From NCBI GenBank assembly GCA_016650135.1, contig JAENWH010000167.1:1-5007 (forward strand): a stretch of DNA of 5,007 nt, in the 5' to 3' direction. Of the stretch, positions 664 through 5,007 are shown piece after piece. A model generated the notes under the pieces. That model did no database searches. It had not been told where the DNA came from and was given only the letters and a program-made list of their open reading frames with translations. Each line of letters starts with the position of its first letter. Position 1 is the stretch's first letter. Source of the stretch: Peptostreptococcaceae bacterium. Its GTDB lineage: Bacteria > Bacillota_A > Clostridia > Peptostreptococcales > Anaerovoracaceae. The position numbers were made by a program, and so were the translations under genes.

Positions 664-692
664 TTGCAATATGTCAGATTTTATGATACAAT
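664..692 (+). promoter_or_regulatory. Candidate promoter of the riboswitch-opuA transcript
   Basis: TTGCAA (664-669), a 17-base spacer and TACAAT (687-692), with TG at 684-685 giving an extended -10. Transcription would start near 699, leaving about 125 bases before the aptamer and about 380 bases of untranslated leader. A TATATA-type element at 818-823 would start transcription inside the first aptamer helix, so it is a worse candidate. A weaker TTGCTT/TATTTT pair lies at 744-771. Confidence 0.5.
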
Positions 693-822
693 AAAAAAAA
701 TGAATAAAACAAACGGTTGAACGATTTATTTCGTTTCAAGAATTTGCTTCTGAGGTGGGGGTCGTTATTTTCGAGGTCTTATCTCTTTTTTTTATTGTTT
801 TATTAAAAAAATAATTATATAT

Positions 823-945
823 ATTCGCTTAATCCAGGAATGGAACGGGAAAACCAATTTTGGGGTGAATCACAATTTGTTTTGTGTAGGGCAATACTTC
901 CGCCCGAACCCGTCAGCTAATCTCGTAAGCGTTGGAAGAGAAGGT
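823..945 (+). ncRNA. ydaO/yuaA-type c-di-AMP riboswitch aptamer
   Basis: The order of conserved blocks matches the c-di-AMP riboswitch class: CGCTTAATCC (826-835), GGGGTGAATC (862-871), GTAGGGC (886-892), CCCGAACCCGTCAGCTAA (903-920), CTCGTAAGCG (922-931). Helices pair by eye. P1 is CGCUU 826-830 with AAGCG 927-931. A variable hairpin is CACAA 871-875 with UUGUG 882-886. GGGC 889-892 pairs with GCCC 902-905, and GGGU 863-866 pairs with ACCC 908-911. A pseudoknot forms between CUUCC 897-901 and GGAAG 934-938, as I recall from the crystal structures of this class. The element sits upstream of an osmolyte transporter, a typical target of the class, and is followed by a terminator, so c-di-AMP is expected to lower expression. 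Blocks and pairings are seen; class and ligand follow from family knowledge. Confidence 0.93.
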
Positions 946-982
946 TATTATTAAGTTTTTTTGTTGTGCCTTTTTTGATGAC

Positions 983-1010
983 GCTGCGGGTGAATGCCTG
1001 CAGTCTTTTT
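983..1010 (+). terminator. Riboswitch expression-platform terminator
   Basis: GCTGCGGG (983-990) pairs with CCTGCAGT (997-1004) across a six-base loop, including two G-U pairs, and is followed by CTTTTT (1005-1010). It lies 45 bases after the aptamer and 68 bases before the opuAA start, the usual place for a transcriptional attenuator. Its 5' arm is complementary to aptamer positions 909-917 (CCCG-U-CAGC with one bulged U), which supplies the competing antiterminator. Confidence 0.75.
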
Positions 1011-1077
1011 AATTTCTGGTTTAAACAGCAGGTAAATAGGCATTAAAAATAAATCCATAGGTTAATAGGAGGCAAGA

Positions 1078-2298
1078 ATGATAGAAGAAACAAAGAGTAT
1101 GGAAAAGCTAGAAGTGAAAAATCTAATTAAGATTTTTGGACCCAATCCAAAGAAGGCTCTAAAGTTGATGGAGCAAGGGTGGAGTAAAGATGCAATACTG
1201 AAAGAAACCTCAGATACAATAGGAGTTAACAACATCAGTTTCAGTGTTCAAGAAGGAGAAATATTTGTAGTAATGGGATTGTCAGGAAGCGGAAAGTCCA
1301 CAATATTAAGATGCCTTAACAGATTAATCGAGCCGAGTTCGGGTGAAATAATAATTGAGGGTACAGACATAACCGCATTAAGTAAAAAAGATCTTCGTAA
1401 ATTCCGTCAGGAAAAGACTGCAATGGTTTTCCAGCAGTTTGCGCTTCTTCCACACCGTACTGTTTTAAGCAATACGGTTTATGGACTGGAAGTCAAGGGG
1501 GTTCAGAAGGATGTAAGGGAAAAGAAGGCGATGGAAATTCTGGATATTGTAGGATTGAAAGGCTGGGAAGATAAATACCCGGACGAGCTTAGCGGCGGAA
1601 TGAAACAACGTGTAGGTCTTGCCAGAGCGTTGACTAACGATGCAGATATCCTGCTGATGGATGAAGCTTTCAGTGCACTTGACCCGCTAATAAGGGAAGA
1701 GATGCAGGATGAACTTCTTGGATTGCAGCAGAAAATGAATAAGACCATTATATTTATAACCCATGATTTGAATGAGGCTCTTAAACTGGGTGACAGGATT
1801 GCGTTTTTGAGAGATGGAGAGCTTATACAAGTTGGCACTCCTGAAGAAATTACGAAAAACCCGGTTGATGATTATGTGTCAAAGTTTGTTAGTGGTGTTG
1901 ACATGAGCAATATACTTACAGTGAAAGATGCCATGAAGAAGGCTCAGCCGCTTATGACGCTGAAAGATGGGCCAACCGTTGCAATCAGAGCAATGAGACA
2001 ATATGGACTTTCAAGTATATTCGTCGTGGACAGAGAAAAGCATCTCAAAGGTGTTATAACAATTGACGAAGCACTGGATGCCAAAAAAAATGATGTCGAG
2101 AGTCTTGCAGATGTTAAATTGAATCAAGGACCGATTCTTAAGGAAGATACTTTAATTAAAGACAGTATCGGAATTGTAGCAGAAGGCAAGCTTCCTACAG
2201 CGGTTATAGATGACGAAAACAGACTCCTGGGGATTTTGGTCAGGGGTTCGGTACTGGCTGCACTAGCTAACGATAAGGAGGTTGACAGTAATGAATAA
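1078..2298 (+). CDS. opuAA: Glycine betaine/osmoprotectant ABC transporter ATP-binding subunit with CBS domains
   Basis: A 406-residue ATPase of a type I osmoprotectant importer, acting at the inner face of the membrane and powering uptake through OpuAB. The nucleotide-binding domain spans about residues 10-270, with Walker A GLSGSGKST (67-75), Q-loop Q119, signature LSGGMKQ (171-177), Walker B ILLMDE (191-196), D-loop SALD (199-202) and switch H229. The N-terminal insertion GPNPKKALKLMEQGWSKD (21-38) is typical of the OpuA/ProV branch. Tandem CBS domains occupy about 276-335 and 340-398, followed by a short acidic tail (DKEVDSNE). In characterised OpuA these domains sense ionic strength, and in the Lactococcus enzyme they also bind c-di-AMP. 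Length is close to that of Bacillus OpuAA. The start is ATG 1078, preceded by AGGAGG (1067-1072). A second in-frame ATG at 1099 has no ribosome site. The stop overlaps the opuAB start by 8 bases, implying coupled translation. Substrate choice (glycine betaine, proline betaine or similar) is inferred from the family. Confidence 0.96.
   Translation: MIEETKSMEKLEVKNLIKIFGPNPKKALKLMEQGWSKDAILKETSDTIGVNNISFSVQEGEIFVVMGLSGSGKSTILRCLNRLIEPSSGEIIIEGTDITALSKKDLRKFRQEKTAMVFQQFALLPHRTVLSNTVYGLEVKGVQKDVREKKAMEILDIVGLKGWEDKYPDELSGGMKQRVGLARALTNDADILLMDEAFSALDPLIREEMQDELLGLQQKMNKTIIFITHDLNEALKLGDRIAFLRDGELIQVGTPEEITKNPVDDYVSKFVSGVDMSNILTVKDAMKKAQPLMTLKDGPTVAIRAMRQYGLSSIFVVDREKHLKGVITIDEALDAKKNDVESLADVKLNQGPILKEDTLIKDSIGIVAEGKLPTAVIDDENRLLGILVRGSVLAALANDKEVDSNE
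2275..2282 (+). promoter_or_regulatory. Ribosome binding site fixing the opuAB start
   Basis: AAGGAGGT inside the end of opuAA, eight bases before ATG 2291. It rules out the in-frame TTG at 2282, which overlaps the last base of this site. Confidence 0.8.
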
Positions 2299-3127
2299 AT
2301 TAATGATCGGTGATGCAATTGACAGCAGCGTAGAGTGGTTTTTGGATGCTTTCGGTAAAAATTTAGATGCATTCTCAGATAGAATTGACGTAATGGTAAA
2401 AGGTTTGAATTCAGTTCTTGAATTTTTGCCGTGGTGGGTTTTGATATTATTGGTTGCTGCCATTGCAATTAAAGCTTCCGGCTGGAAGCTTGCGCTAGGT
2501 TCAGCTCTTGGGCTTGGACTAATATACAATCTTGAATTGTGGCCAGATTTTTTAAGTACTGTAACCCTCGTGGTTTTTGCCACAGTAATTTCGGTATTGA
2601 TAGGAATACCTTTGGGAATACTTGGCGGGCGCAGCAAAGTTTTCCATAGAATAATTTCACCAGTTCTTGATTTTATGCAGACGATGCCTTCGTTTGTGTA
2701 TCTTATTCCAGCACTGATGTTCTTTGGACTGGGAAGATTCGCTGCCATTTTTGCGACGATAATTTTTTCCATGCCGCCCATTATACGCCTTACCGATTTG
2801 GGGCTTAGGCAGGTGCCAGAGGATCTTAACGAGGTTGGTGAAGCCTTTGGTTCCACACCGTGGCAACTGCTTTGGAAAATACAATTCCCGGTGGCTAAGC
2901 CAACTATTCTGGCAGGTTTGAATCAGACGATGATGCTTTCACTTTCCATGGTTGTAATCACTGCGATGATTGGTGCAGGCGGATTGGGAGCAGGCGTTCT
3001 TTACGCAATCGGACAGATGCAGGTAGGCATGGGGTTTGAATACGGTTTGGCTGTCGTAATTTTGGCAATGGTTTTAGACAGAATAACTCAAGGGATTGGA
3101 CGTTCAAAGCGAACTGAAAATAGATGA
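2291..3127 (+). CDS. opuAB: Glycine betaine/osmoprotectant ABC transporter permease
   Basis: A 278-residue membrane permease that forms the translocation path for the compatible solute and docks onto OpuAA. The first ~45 residues are amphipathic, resembling the N-terminal scaffold region of OpuA/ProW proteins. Hydrophobic segments follow at about 47-62, 66-80, 90-113, 132-147, 150-164, 215-232 and 250-264. The coupling (EAA-type) loop is at 181-200 and contains EVGEAFGSTPWQ, with E184, A185 and G187 in the conserved positions. This loop contacts the ATPase. Length matches Bacillus OpuAB (about 280). I chose ATG 2291 over an in-frame TTG at 2282 because AAGGAGGT (2275-2282) is spaced for the ATG. 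The gene starts 8 bases before the opuAA stop, so the two are probably translationally coupled. Two copies per complex are expected from the family. Confidence 0.96.
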   Translation: MNKLMIGDAIDSSVEWFLDAFGKNLDAFSDRIDVMVKGLNSVLEFLPWWVLILLVAAIAIKASGWKLALGSALGLGLIYNLELWPDFLSTVTLVVFATVISVLIGIPLGILGGRSKVFHRIISPVLDFMQTMPSFVYLIPALMFFGLGRFAAIFATIIFSMPPIIRLTDLGLRQVPEDLNEVGEAFGSTPWQLLWKIQFPVAKPTILAGLNQTMMLSLSMVVITAMIGAGGLGAGVLYAIGQMQVGMGFEYGLAVVILAMVLDRITQGIGRSKRTENR

Positions 3128-3150
3128 AAAGTTTTTACTATAAGAAATAA

Positions 3151-3157
3151 GAAGGAG
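3151..3157 (+). promoter_or_regulatory. Ribosome binding site used to choose the opuAC start
   Basis: GAAGGAG lies 9 bases before ATG 3167 and only 3 before ATG 3161. Normal spacing favours 3167. A third ATG at 3179 is too far away. The two nearest starts differ by only two residues of signal peptide. Confidence 0.6.
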
Positions 3158-3166
3158 AAAATGCTT

Positions 3167-4057
3167 ATGAATTTTGTAATGAAAAGATTTAAAAAGTTTA
3201 TGGTTATTGGGTTGATTCTGGCTCTATCTATGACAACGTTAGCAGGTTGCTCAGGAAATGATAGCGAACCTGCAAAAGCTGACGAATCAAAAGGGACAGT
3301 TAATATCGGAATGGTTAACTGGGCCGAATGTGTAGCAGTGAGCAACCTATGGAAAGTAATCCTTGAAGATCAGGGTTATACGGTTGAATTGACTCAACTT
3401 GATGCAGCACCGCTTTATGTCGGTCTGGACAAGGGTGATTTGGATGTATTCTTTGACTCCTGGCTGCCAATAACCCATGAAAGTTATTGGAATGAGTACC
3501 AGGACAACCTTGATGACTATGGAATCTGGTATCAGGCAGATGCAAAGATTGGAATTGTCGTGCCGCAATATGTTGACATTGCTTCAATAGAAGAGATGGC
3601 AGCAAGCAAGGATAAGTTTAATGGAGAAATAATTGGAATTGATCCTGGAGCAGGGATTATGAAAGCAGCTAATGCTGCAAATGAAGATTATGGACTAGGG
3701 TTTGAAGTTATTCAGGGTAGCGAAGCTGCAATGATGGCAGCATTTGAAAAGGCATATAAAAATGAAGAATGGATTGCCATTACAGGATGGAGTCCACATT
3801 GGATGTTTGCAAAATATGACGTTAAATATTTAACAGATGATAAATTGTCATTTGGCGATGCAGAGGAGCTTCATACTCTTGCAAATAAAAACTTTACTGT
3901 TGAAAATCCTGATGTTGCAGAAATGATCAAAAATTTCGCGATGACTGATGCTGATATTGGAAGCCTGGAGGCATTGATTGTCGAGGGTATGGATCCAGAG
4001 GAAGCAGCTGTAAAGTGGATTGCAGAAAATGAAGAAACTGTTAACAACTGGATGTAA
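3167..4057 (+). CDS. opuAC: Glycine betaine/osmoprotectant-binding lipoprotein
   Basis: A 296-residue extracytoplasmic substrate-binding protein. Residues 1-28 form a lipoprotein signal: basic MKRFKK (5-10), a hydrophobic core, then the lipobox LAGC with C28 as the lipidated cysteine. The mature part is an OpuAC-type domain. It has MVNWAEC (49-55), a segment GDLDVFFDSWLPITH (90-104), and TGWSPHWMFAKYD (206-218). Tryptophans W52, W99, W208 and W212 are candidates for the aromatic cage that binds the quaternary ammonium group by cation-pi contacts in this family. H211 is also conserved in relatives. The protein delivers solute to OpuAB and is the last gene of the operon, 39 bases after the opuAB stop. 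ATG 3161 would add two residues, but its ribosome site would be only 3 bases away. Substrate could be glycine betaine, proline betaine or carnitine; sequence alone does not decide. Confidence 0.95.
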   Translation: MNFVMKRFKKFMVIGLILALSMTTLAGCSGNDSEPAKADESKGTVNIGMVNWAECVAVSNLWKVILEDQGYTVELTQLDAAPLYVGLDKGDLDVFFDSWLPITHESYWNEYQDNLDDYGIWYQADAKIGIVVPQYVDIASIEEMAASKDKFNGEIIGIDPGAGIMKAANAANEDYGLGFEVIQGSEAAMMAAFEKAYKNEEWIAITGWSPHWMFAKYDVKYLTDDKLSFGDAEELHTLANKNFTVENPDVAEMIKNFAMTDADIGSLEALIVEGMDPEEAAVKWIAENEETVNNWM

Positions 4058-4088
4058 TTCTGAAATCAGGTAATATTACAAAAATTTT

Positions 4089-4133
4089 AAAGAAAGGAAC
4101 CTTAGCTCTAAGCTAAGGTTCCTTTCTTTTATT
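4089..4133 (+). terminator. Strong terminator of the opuA operon
   Basis: Arms 4089-4107 and 4111-4129 are perfectly complementary over 19 bp around a CTA triloop. The 3' arm ends in CTTTCTTT and runs into TATTT, so the U-tract is partly inside the hairpin. It begins 31 bases after the opuAC stop and separates this operon from mrpE. Confidence 0.9.
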
Positions 4134-4381
4134 TCTCCGCACATCAGTTTTATAATATCTTAATTTGATTCCCGTATTTCACTTTACTCGTTTCAATGCT
4201 GGTCAGGGATAAATTATAATTATTCGGCATCCGGGAAGTTTGAATTAACAGAAATCTGATTTTTAAATAATATCCTGATTCTTTGTTTTTTTTGTTTACT
4301 TTTTAAGTGATTTGACGTAAGATAAAACACGTGGCAAATAATTGAATACAATATACAAACGTTGATGGAGGTGTAATACAT
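4134..4381. other. AT-rich spacer and mrpE leader
   Basis: About 250 bases without a supportable gene on either strand. It contains a perfect TATAAT at 4151-4156 without a good -35 box, a TTGACG at 4312-4317 without a -10 at normal spacing, and a TACAAT at 4347-4352 without a -35. The mrp promoter is probably here, but I cannot place it. A GGAGGTG ribosome site at 4367-4373 serves mrpE. Confidence 0.55.
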
Positions 4382-4858
4382 ATGGTAAATTTTATATTAC
4401 TTTTTATTTCATTGTTTCTCATCTGGACAGGATTAGTTTTCCCGCAGTCGGGGCAAGAAATGATCGTAGGTGTAATATTAAGTTTTAGTATTTCGATACT
4501 GGCTATAACAAGGATGAAAGGCAAAAGGAACTTCAAAATTTCTGGAATTATCTACGGCATAAAATTCATATTTGTTTTTATATGGGAATTGATTGTGGCA
4601 AACTTAATAATGGCAAAAATTGTTCTTTCACCAATTTTACCGATTTCACCGAAAATCGTCAAAGTCCATACGACAATCGAGTCAAAAATAGGGAGAGCAT
4701 TTCTGGCTAATGCGATAACATTGACACCGGGAACATTGACAATAGATTTGATTGACAATGATCTATATATTCATGTAGTTGACGGAAACGGACTGAAAAG
4801 TGCCGAAAGCATTGTTGAACCGTTTGAAAAAAACTTGAAAGGGGTGCTTGACATATGA
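4382..4858 (+). CDS. mrpE: Mrp-type Na+/H+ antiporter subunit E
   Basis: A 158-residue small membrane subunit of the multisubunit cation/proton antiporter (Mrp/Mnh/Sha) family. Hydrophobic segments lie at about 3-20, 27-44 and 55-83, followed by a cytoplasmic-type C-terminal domain. The family signature is clear: FLANAITLTPGTLTIDL (107-123), with the ITLTPGT core at 112-118, and a later HVVDG (131-135). Length agrees with MrpE proteins (about 155-165). Start ATG 4382 follows GGAGGTG (4367-4373) by 8 bases. The stop overlaps the mrpF start as ATGA, showing a continuous operon. In the family, MrpE is needed for assembly or activity of the complex and is not the main ion-translocating subunit. 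No mrpD precedes it here, so the operon starts with mrpE. It could also belong to a related complex such as a membrane-bound hydrogenase with an Mrp-like module, and genes to the right would decide. Confidence 0.93.
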   Translation: MVNFILLFISLFLIWTGLVFPQSGQEMIVGVILSFSISILAITRMKGKRNFKISGIIYGIKFIFVFIWELIVANLIMAKIVLSPILPISPKIVKVHTTIESKIGRAFLANAITLTPGTLTIDLIDNDLYIHVVDGNGLKSAESIVEPFEKNLKGVLDI

Positions 4859-5007
4859 TGTACCTAATTATTGGATTAATTATTGCTGGAATTTTACTTG
4901 CATTTATTCGTTTGATTAAAGGCAAGGAACTTGAAAATAGAGTTGTTGCTGTAGACACACTGACGACTATTACGACTGCCGTATTTTTATTATATGCTCA
5001 CCAGACA
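4855..5007 (+). CDS. mrpF: Mrp-type Na+/H+ antiporter subunit F, N-terminal part (cut by window edge)
   Basis: The first 51 codons of a small membrane subunit are visible. A hydrophobic segment at residues 3-20 is followed by a basic loop (RLIKGK, 19-24) and the conserved MrpF block ENRVVAVDTLTT (27-38). D34 is at the position of the conserved membrane aspartate of the family, and a second hydrophobic segment begins at about 39. MrpF usually has about 90 residues, so roughly half is missing. ATG 4855 overlaps the mrpE stop (ATGA) and has GGGGTG (4841-4846) 8 bases upstream. An adjacent ATG at 4858 is possible but is less well spaced. The overlap and the E-F order support a shared complex. MrpG is the expected next gene. 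Confidence 0.9.
   Translation, partial: MMYLIIGLIIAGILLAFIRLIKGKELENRVVAVDTLTTITTAVFLLYAHQT

Follow-up and report, generated by a model that had tools for sequence, protein, structure and literature searches.

C-di-AMP riboswitches ahead of osmolyte importers are ordinary, expected biology, and the question raised by the present locus, a 5,007-nucleotide stretch of a Peptostreptococcaceae contig (the window), is what its leader might sense in addition to c-di-AMP. We lean toward the view that the leader at 699-1077 controls an OpuA-type betaine importer as a transcription-termination gate with two inputs. Since the leader joins a predicted c-di-AMP sensor to a sodium-sensor-like RNA, osmolyte uptake may be turned on only at high sodium and low c-di-AMP. 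What stands out beyond the expected c-di-AMP switch is the rarer tandem with a Na+-I-type element that bears one telling loop change. The leader runs from a promoter-like site through a Na+ aptamer, which is a sub-threshold homologue, an overlapping terminator and a c-di-AMP aptamer to a second terminator, and these homologies, terminator-like hairpins and overlaps are present in the sequence itself. The features of the leader and the operon are as follows.

664-692, plus strand: promoter-like site (TTGCAA-17-TACAAT), predicted start near 699
715-764, plus strand: Na+-I (DUF1646) riboswitch-type aptamer, P1 717-724/731-739, P2 745-751/758-764, loop 752-757
752-793, plus strand: terminator-like hairpin T1, hairpin 752-785 and eight U (786-793)
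816-947, plus strand: predicted c-di-AMP riboswitch aptamer (Rfam RF00379), P1 826-829/928-931, pseudoknot 897-901/934-938
928-985, plus strand: putative antiterminator, 928-934 with 979-985 and 937-945 with 968-976, excluding P1 and the pseudoknot
983-1010, plus strand: putative terminator T2, a 9-pair hairpin (983-1004) and then CUUUUU
1067-1072, plus strand: ribosome-binding site AGGAGG, read from the sequence, ahead of the ATG at 1078
1078-2298, plus strand: proV/opuAA, ATPase with a C-terminal CBS region (TIGR01186, PF00005, CBS)
2291-3127, plus strand: proW/opuAB, permease (PF00528; TIGR03416 at 306.6 bits, below the cut-off of 363)
3161-4057, plus strand: proX/opuAC, substrate-binding lipoprotein (PF04069, 238 bits; nearest solved chain 2b4l_A, OpuAC)

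The c-di-AMP riboswitch and its probable expression platform

The original prediction placed a c-di-AMP riboswitch at 823-945 and called for a covariance-model scan, and the element that it described is the one matched by RF00379 at 816-947 on the plus strand, with ends that agree to within a few bases. The match is full-length (model positions 1-134 of 134) and its score of 108.3 bits (E 5.7e-26) exceeds the Rfam gathering score of 38 by a wide margin. We have very little doubt that 816-947 is a c-di-AMP riboswitch, and that it senses c-di-AMP is a nearly certain prediction. The Rfam alignment forms P1 from 826-829 and 928-931, and the pseudoknot that had been paired by hand, 897-901 (CUUCC) with 934-938 (GGAAG), consists of five Watson-Crick pairs when the letters are checked. 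An equivalent pairing of the loop with the 3' tail, of at least four pairs, is possible in 25 of the 25 distinct leaders that fit the script's pattern, the window included (six pairs in 22, five in two and four in one, with at most one G-U in each), a count that serves as supporting evidence only because the script took the best pairing and the ends are often pyrimidine- or purine-rich. Both sides of the pseudoknot have quite different letters in three relatives, namely CAGAC/GTCTG in L001, CAGACT/GGTCTG in L005 and CGACAA/TTGTCG in L012. The minimum free energy folding of the aptamer lies near that of its shuffles (z −0.29); a pseudoknotted tertiary fold need not stand out in such a comparison.

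Two helices can compete at the 3' end of the aptamer and beyond it. The 5' part of the antiterminator helix (−16.0 kcal/mol, z −3.65, with none of 300 dinucleotide shuffles as low) takes up the 3' strand of P1 along with three bases out of five in the pseudoknot's 3' strand. The T2 hairpin at 983-1004 (−13.6 kcal/mol, z −4.35, also with 0 of 300 shuffles as low) was in addition found by a simple terminator scan, and because bases 983-985 are common to the two structures they are mutually exclusive. Bound c-di-AMP would keep P1 and the pseudoknot closed and so withhold their 3' strands from the antiterminator, and T2 would then form and stop transcription. Hence OFF control through T2 termination, a direction that the original prediction did not give and that we infer from the way in which the antiterminator and T2 folds fit, is in our view quite probable. 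A Dehalobacter leader with the same arrangement of the antiterminator on the P1 and pseudoknot strands is described by White et al. (2022; PMC9337991).

The importer operon

The claim that the riboswitch precedes a betaine importer operon is borne out in that proV-proW-proX encode an OpuA-type quaternary-amine importer, as judged from TIGR01186, PF00528, PF04069 and matches to solved chains. ProV scores 444.4 bits with TIGR01186, where the cut-off is 326.6, and its nearest solved chain is 7ahc_D, from a betaine ABC transporter. Betaine is the likeliest substrate suggested by these homologies and is not settled, because the binding protein is under the NCBIfam cut-offs for choline (150.4 of 379.05) and for ProX (59.5 of 215). 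C-di-AMP also acts on the OpuA protein itself, by way of its CBS domains.

A Na+-I-type element upstream of the c-di-AMP aptamer

While the riboswitch, the pseudoknot and the OpuA-type operon of the original prediction all stand, a Na+-I-type element with its own terminator at 715-793 had been missed. The Rfam scan gives RF03071 a score of 30.7 bits at 715-764 (E 0.0015, all families taken together), short of its gathering score of 40.5. Our own model R1, built from 38 Na+ sequences of other genomes that all reach the gathering score, with the window excluded, gives the element 31.0 bits. Across the 77 sources searched with R1, made up of the window, 56 loci related to ProV and 20 leader-like loci and amounting to 446,200 bases, the next best match has 22.0 bits and lies inside a coding frame, and the one after it has 10.7 bits, while the best RF03071 match in 34 whole genomes of ProV relatives reaches 21.9 bits. 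Among 68 distinct relatives, 16 positions are conserved in 95% or more of the sequences, and the element keeps 15 of these. From these comparisons we judge with high confidence that 715-764 is a homologue by descent of the Na+-I riboswitches, and we give slightly better than an even chance to the prediction that it still senses Na+.

The single plus-strand promoter-like site upstream, at 664-692, has 9 of 12 matches, and the region has two such sites where 1.8 are expected in shuffles, so that the site is weak evidence when taken alone. Its transcript would carry 715-793, with the Na+ element starting about 15 nt after the start deduced from the site. Between the two aptamers the promoter scan lists no site from which a transcript would skip the Na+ element, which is itself weak evidence. 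T1 (−10.3 kcal/mol, z −2.58, with 5 of 300 shuffles as low) is absent from the simple terminator scan. It overlaps the loop and the 3' strand of P2 of the Na+ aptamer, in which P1 and P2 can both form, P2 weakly, and a terminator that overlaps P2 is the ON-switch layout reported for the Na+-I class in the text of PMC9337991.

At the remaining conserved position, in the P2 loop, the window has A753, whereas every one of the 66 relatives with a letter there has G. P2 itself has six of seven standard pairs, two of them Watson-Crick, and of 69 such hairpins only four are weaker than its own (−3.3 kcal/mol), two of these four being truncated matches. White et al. report in their text (PMC9337991) that the double mutation G50U/G51U in the same loop of the kefB aptamer abolished the Na+ response, and G50 of kefB would be the counterpart of 753 when counted along the relative L090. 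No other match among the Na+ elements found with R1 has the same loop as the window. A GAGG-loop subclass was also considered and was rejected, as a pattern search of 393 genomes gave six hits compared with 22, by our own count, in the reversed control; none of the six hit loci carries a c-di-AMP core.

Leaders of related importers and of close genomes

The predicted c-di-AMP control of the OpuA-type importer recurs, since in 4 of the 16 closest ProV loci that were scanned with Rfam (L001, L005, L009 and L012) proV is preceded by a c-di-AMP riboswitch, and in L001, L005 and L012 a TATAAT box can be seen by eye shortly before the aptamer. The 56 ProV loci that were searched with R1 (L001-L034, L037 and L113-L133, with L035, L036, L038 and L039 left out) contain no Na+ element outside coding sequence; the sole match above background, the 22.0-bit one in L133, was rejected as chance given its place inside a coding frame. 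From its sequence, the window looks like this c-di-AMP-leader design with a Na+-type module set between the promoter and the c-di-AMP switch.

The sole near-identical operon that was found is on the MAG contig L037, with 92% nucleotide identity to 1872-5007 of the window, which therefore probably belongs to a relative of it, and as this contig begins inside proV the leader is absent from it. When positions 1-1400 of the window were compared with the L037 genome there was one match, to another c-di-AMP leader (104.3 bits), and the gene behind it is, by eye, a citrate synthase. The leader (699-1077) has matches in 41 of 198 genomes of the order of L037, the best being to c-di-AMP leaders, and in addition to L070 another 29 matches were taken up as loci. 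A pattern scan of these leader-like loci found no c-di-AMP core with a Na+-type element before it, and on 20 of the leader-like loci (L070 and L176-L194) R1 found no Na+ element, the best score being 10.7 bits. Of 99 genomes in the family of G167, that of L037 among them, 3 have Na+-type elements above 30 bits.

One site in that family, represented by both L073 and L082 (5407-5700 of L082), has a Na+-I riboswitch of 45.1 bits directly behind a proVWX operon and ahead of a short frame that by eye resembles the start of proX. In our reading, a one-base bulge in P1 is common to this element and that of the window.

Na+/c-di-AMP tandems in other genomes

The collection of Na+ elements drew on 294 relatives of the L037 genome and 391 genomes of its class, and further on 58 genomes from the order to which G576 belongs and 82 from the class of G008. 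These sets overlap, and the counts are lower bounds because not every match became a locus. R1 was given 73 loci and the window, with ten weaker loci left out (L076-L081, L105, L106, L111 and L112), and returned 73 matches, L150, L168 and L173 being without a match at that threshold. Subtracting the window and counting a double site once leaves 70 Na+-type places. With a strict pattern that was applied to 204 loci, a c-di-AMP core is found within 500 nt downstream in 13 of these 70 places. All 13 of the cores are RF00379 by Rfam, and the Na+ aptamers of 12 of the 13 tandems reach the gathering score, the exception being L175 (33.1 bits).

The first gene encodes lysine-2,3-aminomutase or a similar radical-SAM protein in seven of the tandems (L109, L162-L165, L171 and L175; in L109 the radical-SAM domain alone scored) and is dapB in four (L134, L142, L152 and L153). 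The L147 tandem (1501-3055) is followed by a short frame and then an ArsB/CitMHS-type transporter, and the L160 tandem (1501-3058) stands ahead of a trehalose-phosphate synthase (glycosyltransferase family 20), an osmolyte-making target. These gene names come from Pfam in ten of the 13 cases and from likeness to L162 and L165 in the other three (L163, L164 and L171). None of the 13 tandems found has a betaine importer behind it.

Other pairings were also seen. L166 has two Na+-type aptamers on one strand, at 1501-1556 and 1670-1727 and 113 nt apart, as a possible Na+/Na+ tandem. In L178, L184, L185, L186 and L189 two c-di-AMP cores lie about 300 nt apart on the same strand, and in L178 the next gene is, by eye, a GNAT-type acetyltransferase.

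A proposed two-input gate and its alternatives

In the proposed gate, the ligands and termination in vivo are, like the direction of control, predictions. For the first input, Na+-bound P2 of 715-764 would exclude T1 (752-793), and RNA polymerase would pass at high Na+. For the second, the c-di-AMP aptamer (816-947), when bound, would lead to the stop at T2, and the operon would on balance be expressed at high Na+ combined with low c-di-AMP. The order of the leader, which matches that of the Dehalobacter gate and recurs in 13 of the 70 Na+-type places, was counted for this proposal, as were the 108.3 bits of the c-di-AMP aptamer, the mutually exclusive T2 and antiterminator, the distance of the Na+ element's score from the next best matches and its 15 kept positions. 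Counted against it were the sub-gathering Na+ score, A753, the weak P2, the G50U/G51U result and a promoter-like site at chance level, together with the lack of Na+ elements outside coding sequence in the 56 other ProV loci searched with R1.

The most serious alternative is that the c-di-AMP OFF switch works while the Na+ riboswitch before it has decayed and lost binding through A753 and the weakened P2. T1 would then be a constitutive partial attenuator or be read through, and the operon would answer to c-di-AMP alone. We regard both this loss of binding and this role of T1 as possible but doubtful. That A753 is unique among the aligned relatives, that P2 is weak, that the published aptamer no longer responds to Na+ once two bases of this loop are mutated (text of PMC9337991) and that ProV loci have a c-di-AMP riboswitch ahead of proV in 4 of the 16 closest cases and a Na+ element outside coding sequence in 0 of 56 all favor such decay. 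However, the other 15 conserved positions are kept where free decay would be expected to lose more, and T1 is intact; without a sensor, an intact T1 would presumably throttle the operon. Moreover, the tandem Na+ aptamer of L175, before an aminomutase gene, is likewise sub-gathering at 33.1 bits.

It is also conceivable, if unlikely, that the change from G to A at 753 shifts the ion preference or the working range of the aptamer and leaves the tandem gate intact. A single change in the ligand loop of an otherwise conserved aptamer would agree with this, and White et al. (PMC9337991), in the text, left room for Na+-I members with altered specificity, but there is no second example, the loop being absent from the other matches and the 393-genome pattern having six hits versus 22 when reversed. 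If such a variant aptamer were real, a natural leader would weigh an ion and c-di-AMP directly for the import of an osmolyte and not for its synthesis. That 715-764 is unrelated to the Na+-I riboswitches and resembles them by chance is highly improbable, for although its score is below the Rfam gathering score and chance matches reach 22 bits (in the L133 coding frame), its 31 bits are 9 bits above the best of these and it lies on the right strand, between the promoter-like site and an overlapping terminator-like hairpin and directly before the c-di-AMP aptamer, as in the 13 tandems. When A753 and the weak P2 are weighed against the conservation, T1 and L175, retained Na+ sensing comes out as the somewhat favored reading, a decayed sensor as clearly less probable, a shifted one as improbable and mere chance as least credible by far.

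If the gate does work, osmolyte uptake falls under the same RNA logic by which Na+ and c-di-AMP control osmolyte synthesis, and the loop variant provides a naturally occurring test of the base that determines Na+ binding.

Relation to known systems

As an aptamer the c-di-AMP element has no differences from the ydaO/yuaA class (RF00379), with which it shares the full-length match, P1, the pseudoknot and an antiterminator and terminator that fit OFF control, whereas in the window it is preceded by a second, Na+-type element. The latter shares with the Na+-I riboswitch, or DUF1646 motif (RF03071; PMC9337991, text), the two-hairpin layout, 15 of 16 conserved positions and an ON-type overlapping terminator, and differs in being sub-gathering, in A753 of the P2 loop and in its weak P2. 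A gate of the type 'Na+ AND NOT c-di-AMP' is itself already published, in the text of White et al. (2022; PMC9337991), and the closest known counterpart of the window is the 'A AND NOT B' gate of ablA in Dehalobacter sp. CF described there, which has the same order, a terminator for each aptamer and the P1/pseudoknot strand as antiterminator. The Dehalobacter operon makes an osmolyte, whereas the operon of the window imports one, and the Na+ aptamer of the window is a variant. The same regulatory logic, in which c-di-AMP lowers transcription of an OpuA betaine importer, is described for BusR on busA (opuA) of streptococci and lactococci in the text of PMC8517857, with the difference that the repressor there is a DNA-binding protein while the predicted control in the window is by RNA.

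As regards tandems, a 2022 review (PMC9481103) gives five Na+-I/c-di-AMP tandems in its table or six in its text, and the targets named in the main text of White et al. (PMC9337991) are ablA and dapB. No Na+/c-di-AMP tandem ahead of opuA or proV is named in the text of PMC9337991, PMC9481103, PMC12143400 or PMC8517857, a scope that stops short of the supplementary tables, and one may be in print.

Neighboring genes

Behind the importer operon, at 4382-5007, come mrpE and the first part of mrpF, which belong to a multisubunit Na+/H+ antiporter; a terminator-like hairpin near 4089-4129 stands between the operon and mrpE. Ahead of mrpE (4141-4381) neither Rfam nor R1 run unfiltered gave a credible match to a Na+ element, and weak Rfam matches in 4022-4151 (ncr1015, MIR7504 and BSnc120) were rejected as they are far under their gathering scores and overlap the terminator-like hairpin. 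Upstream of the leader, a small cupin-domain protein (PF07883) is encoded at 217-567 on the minus strand.
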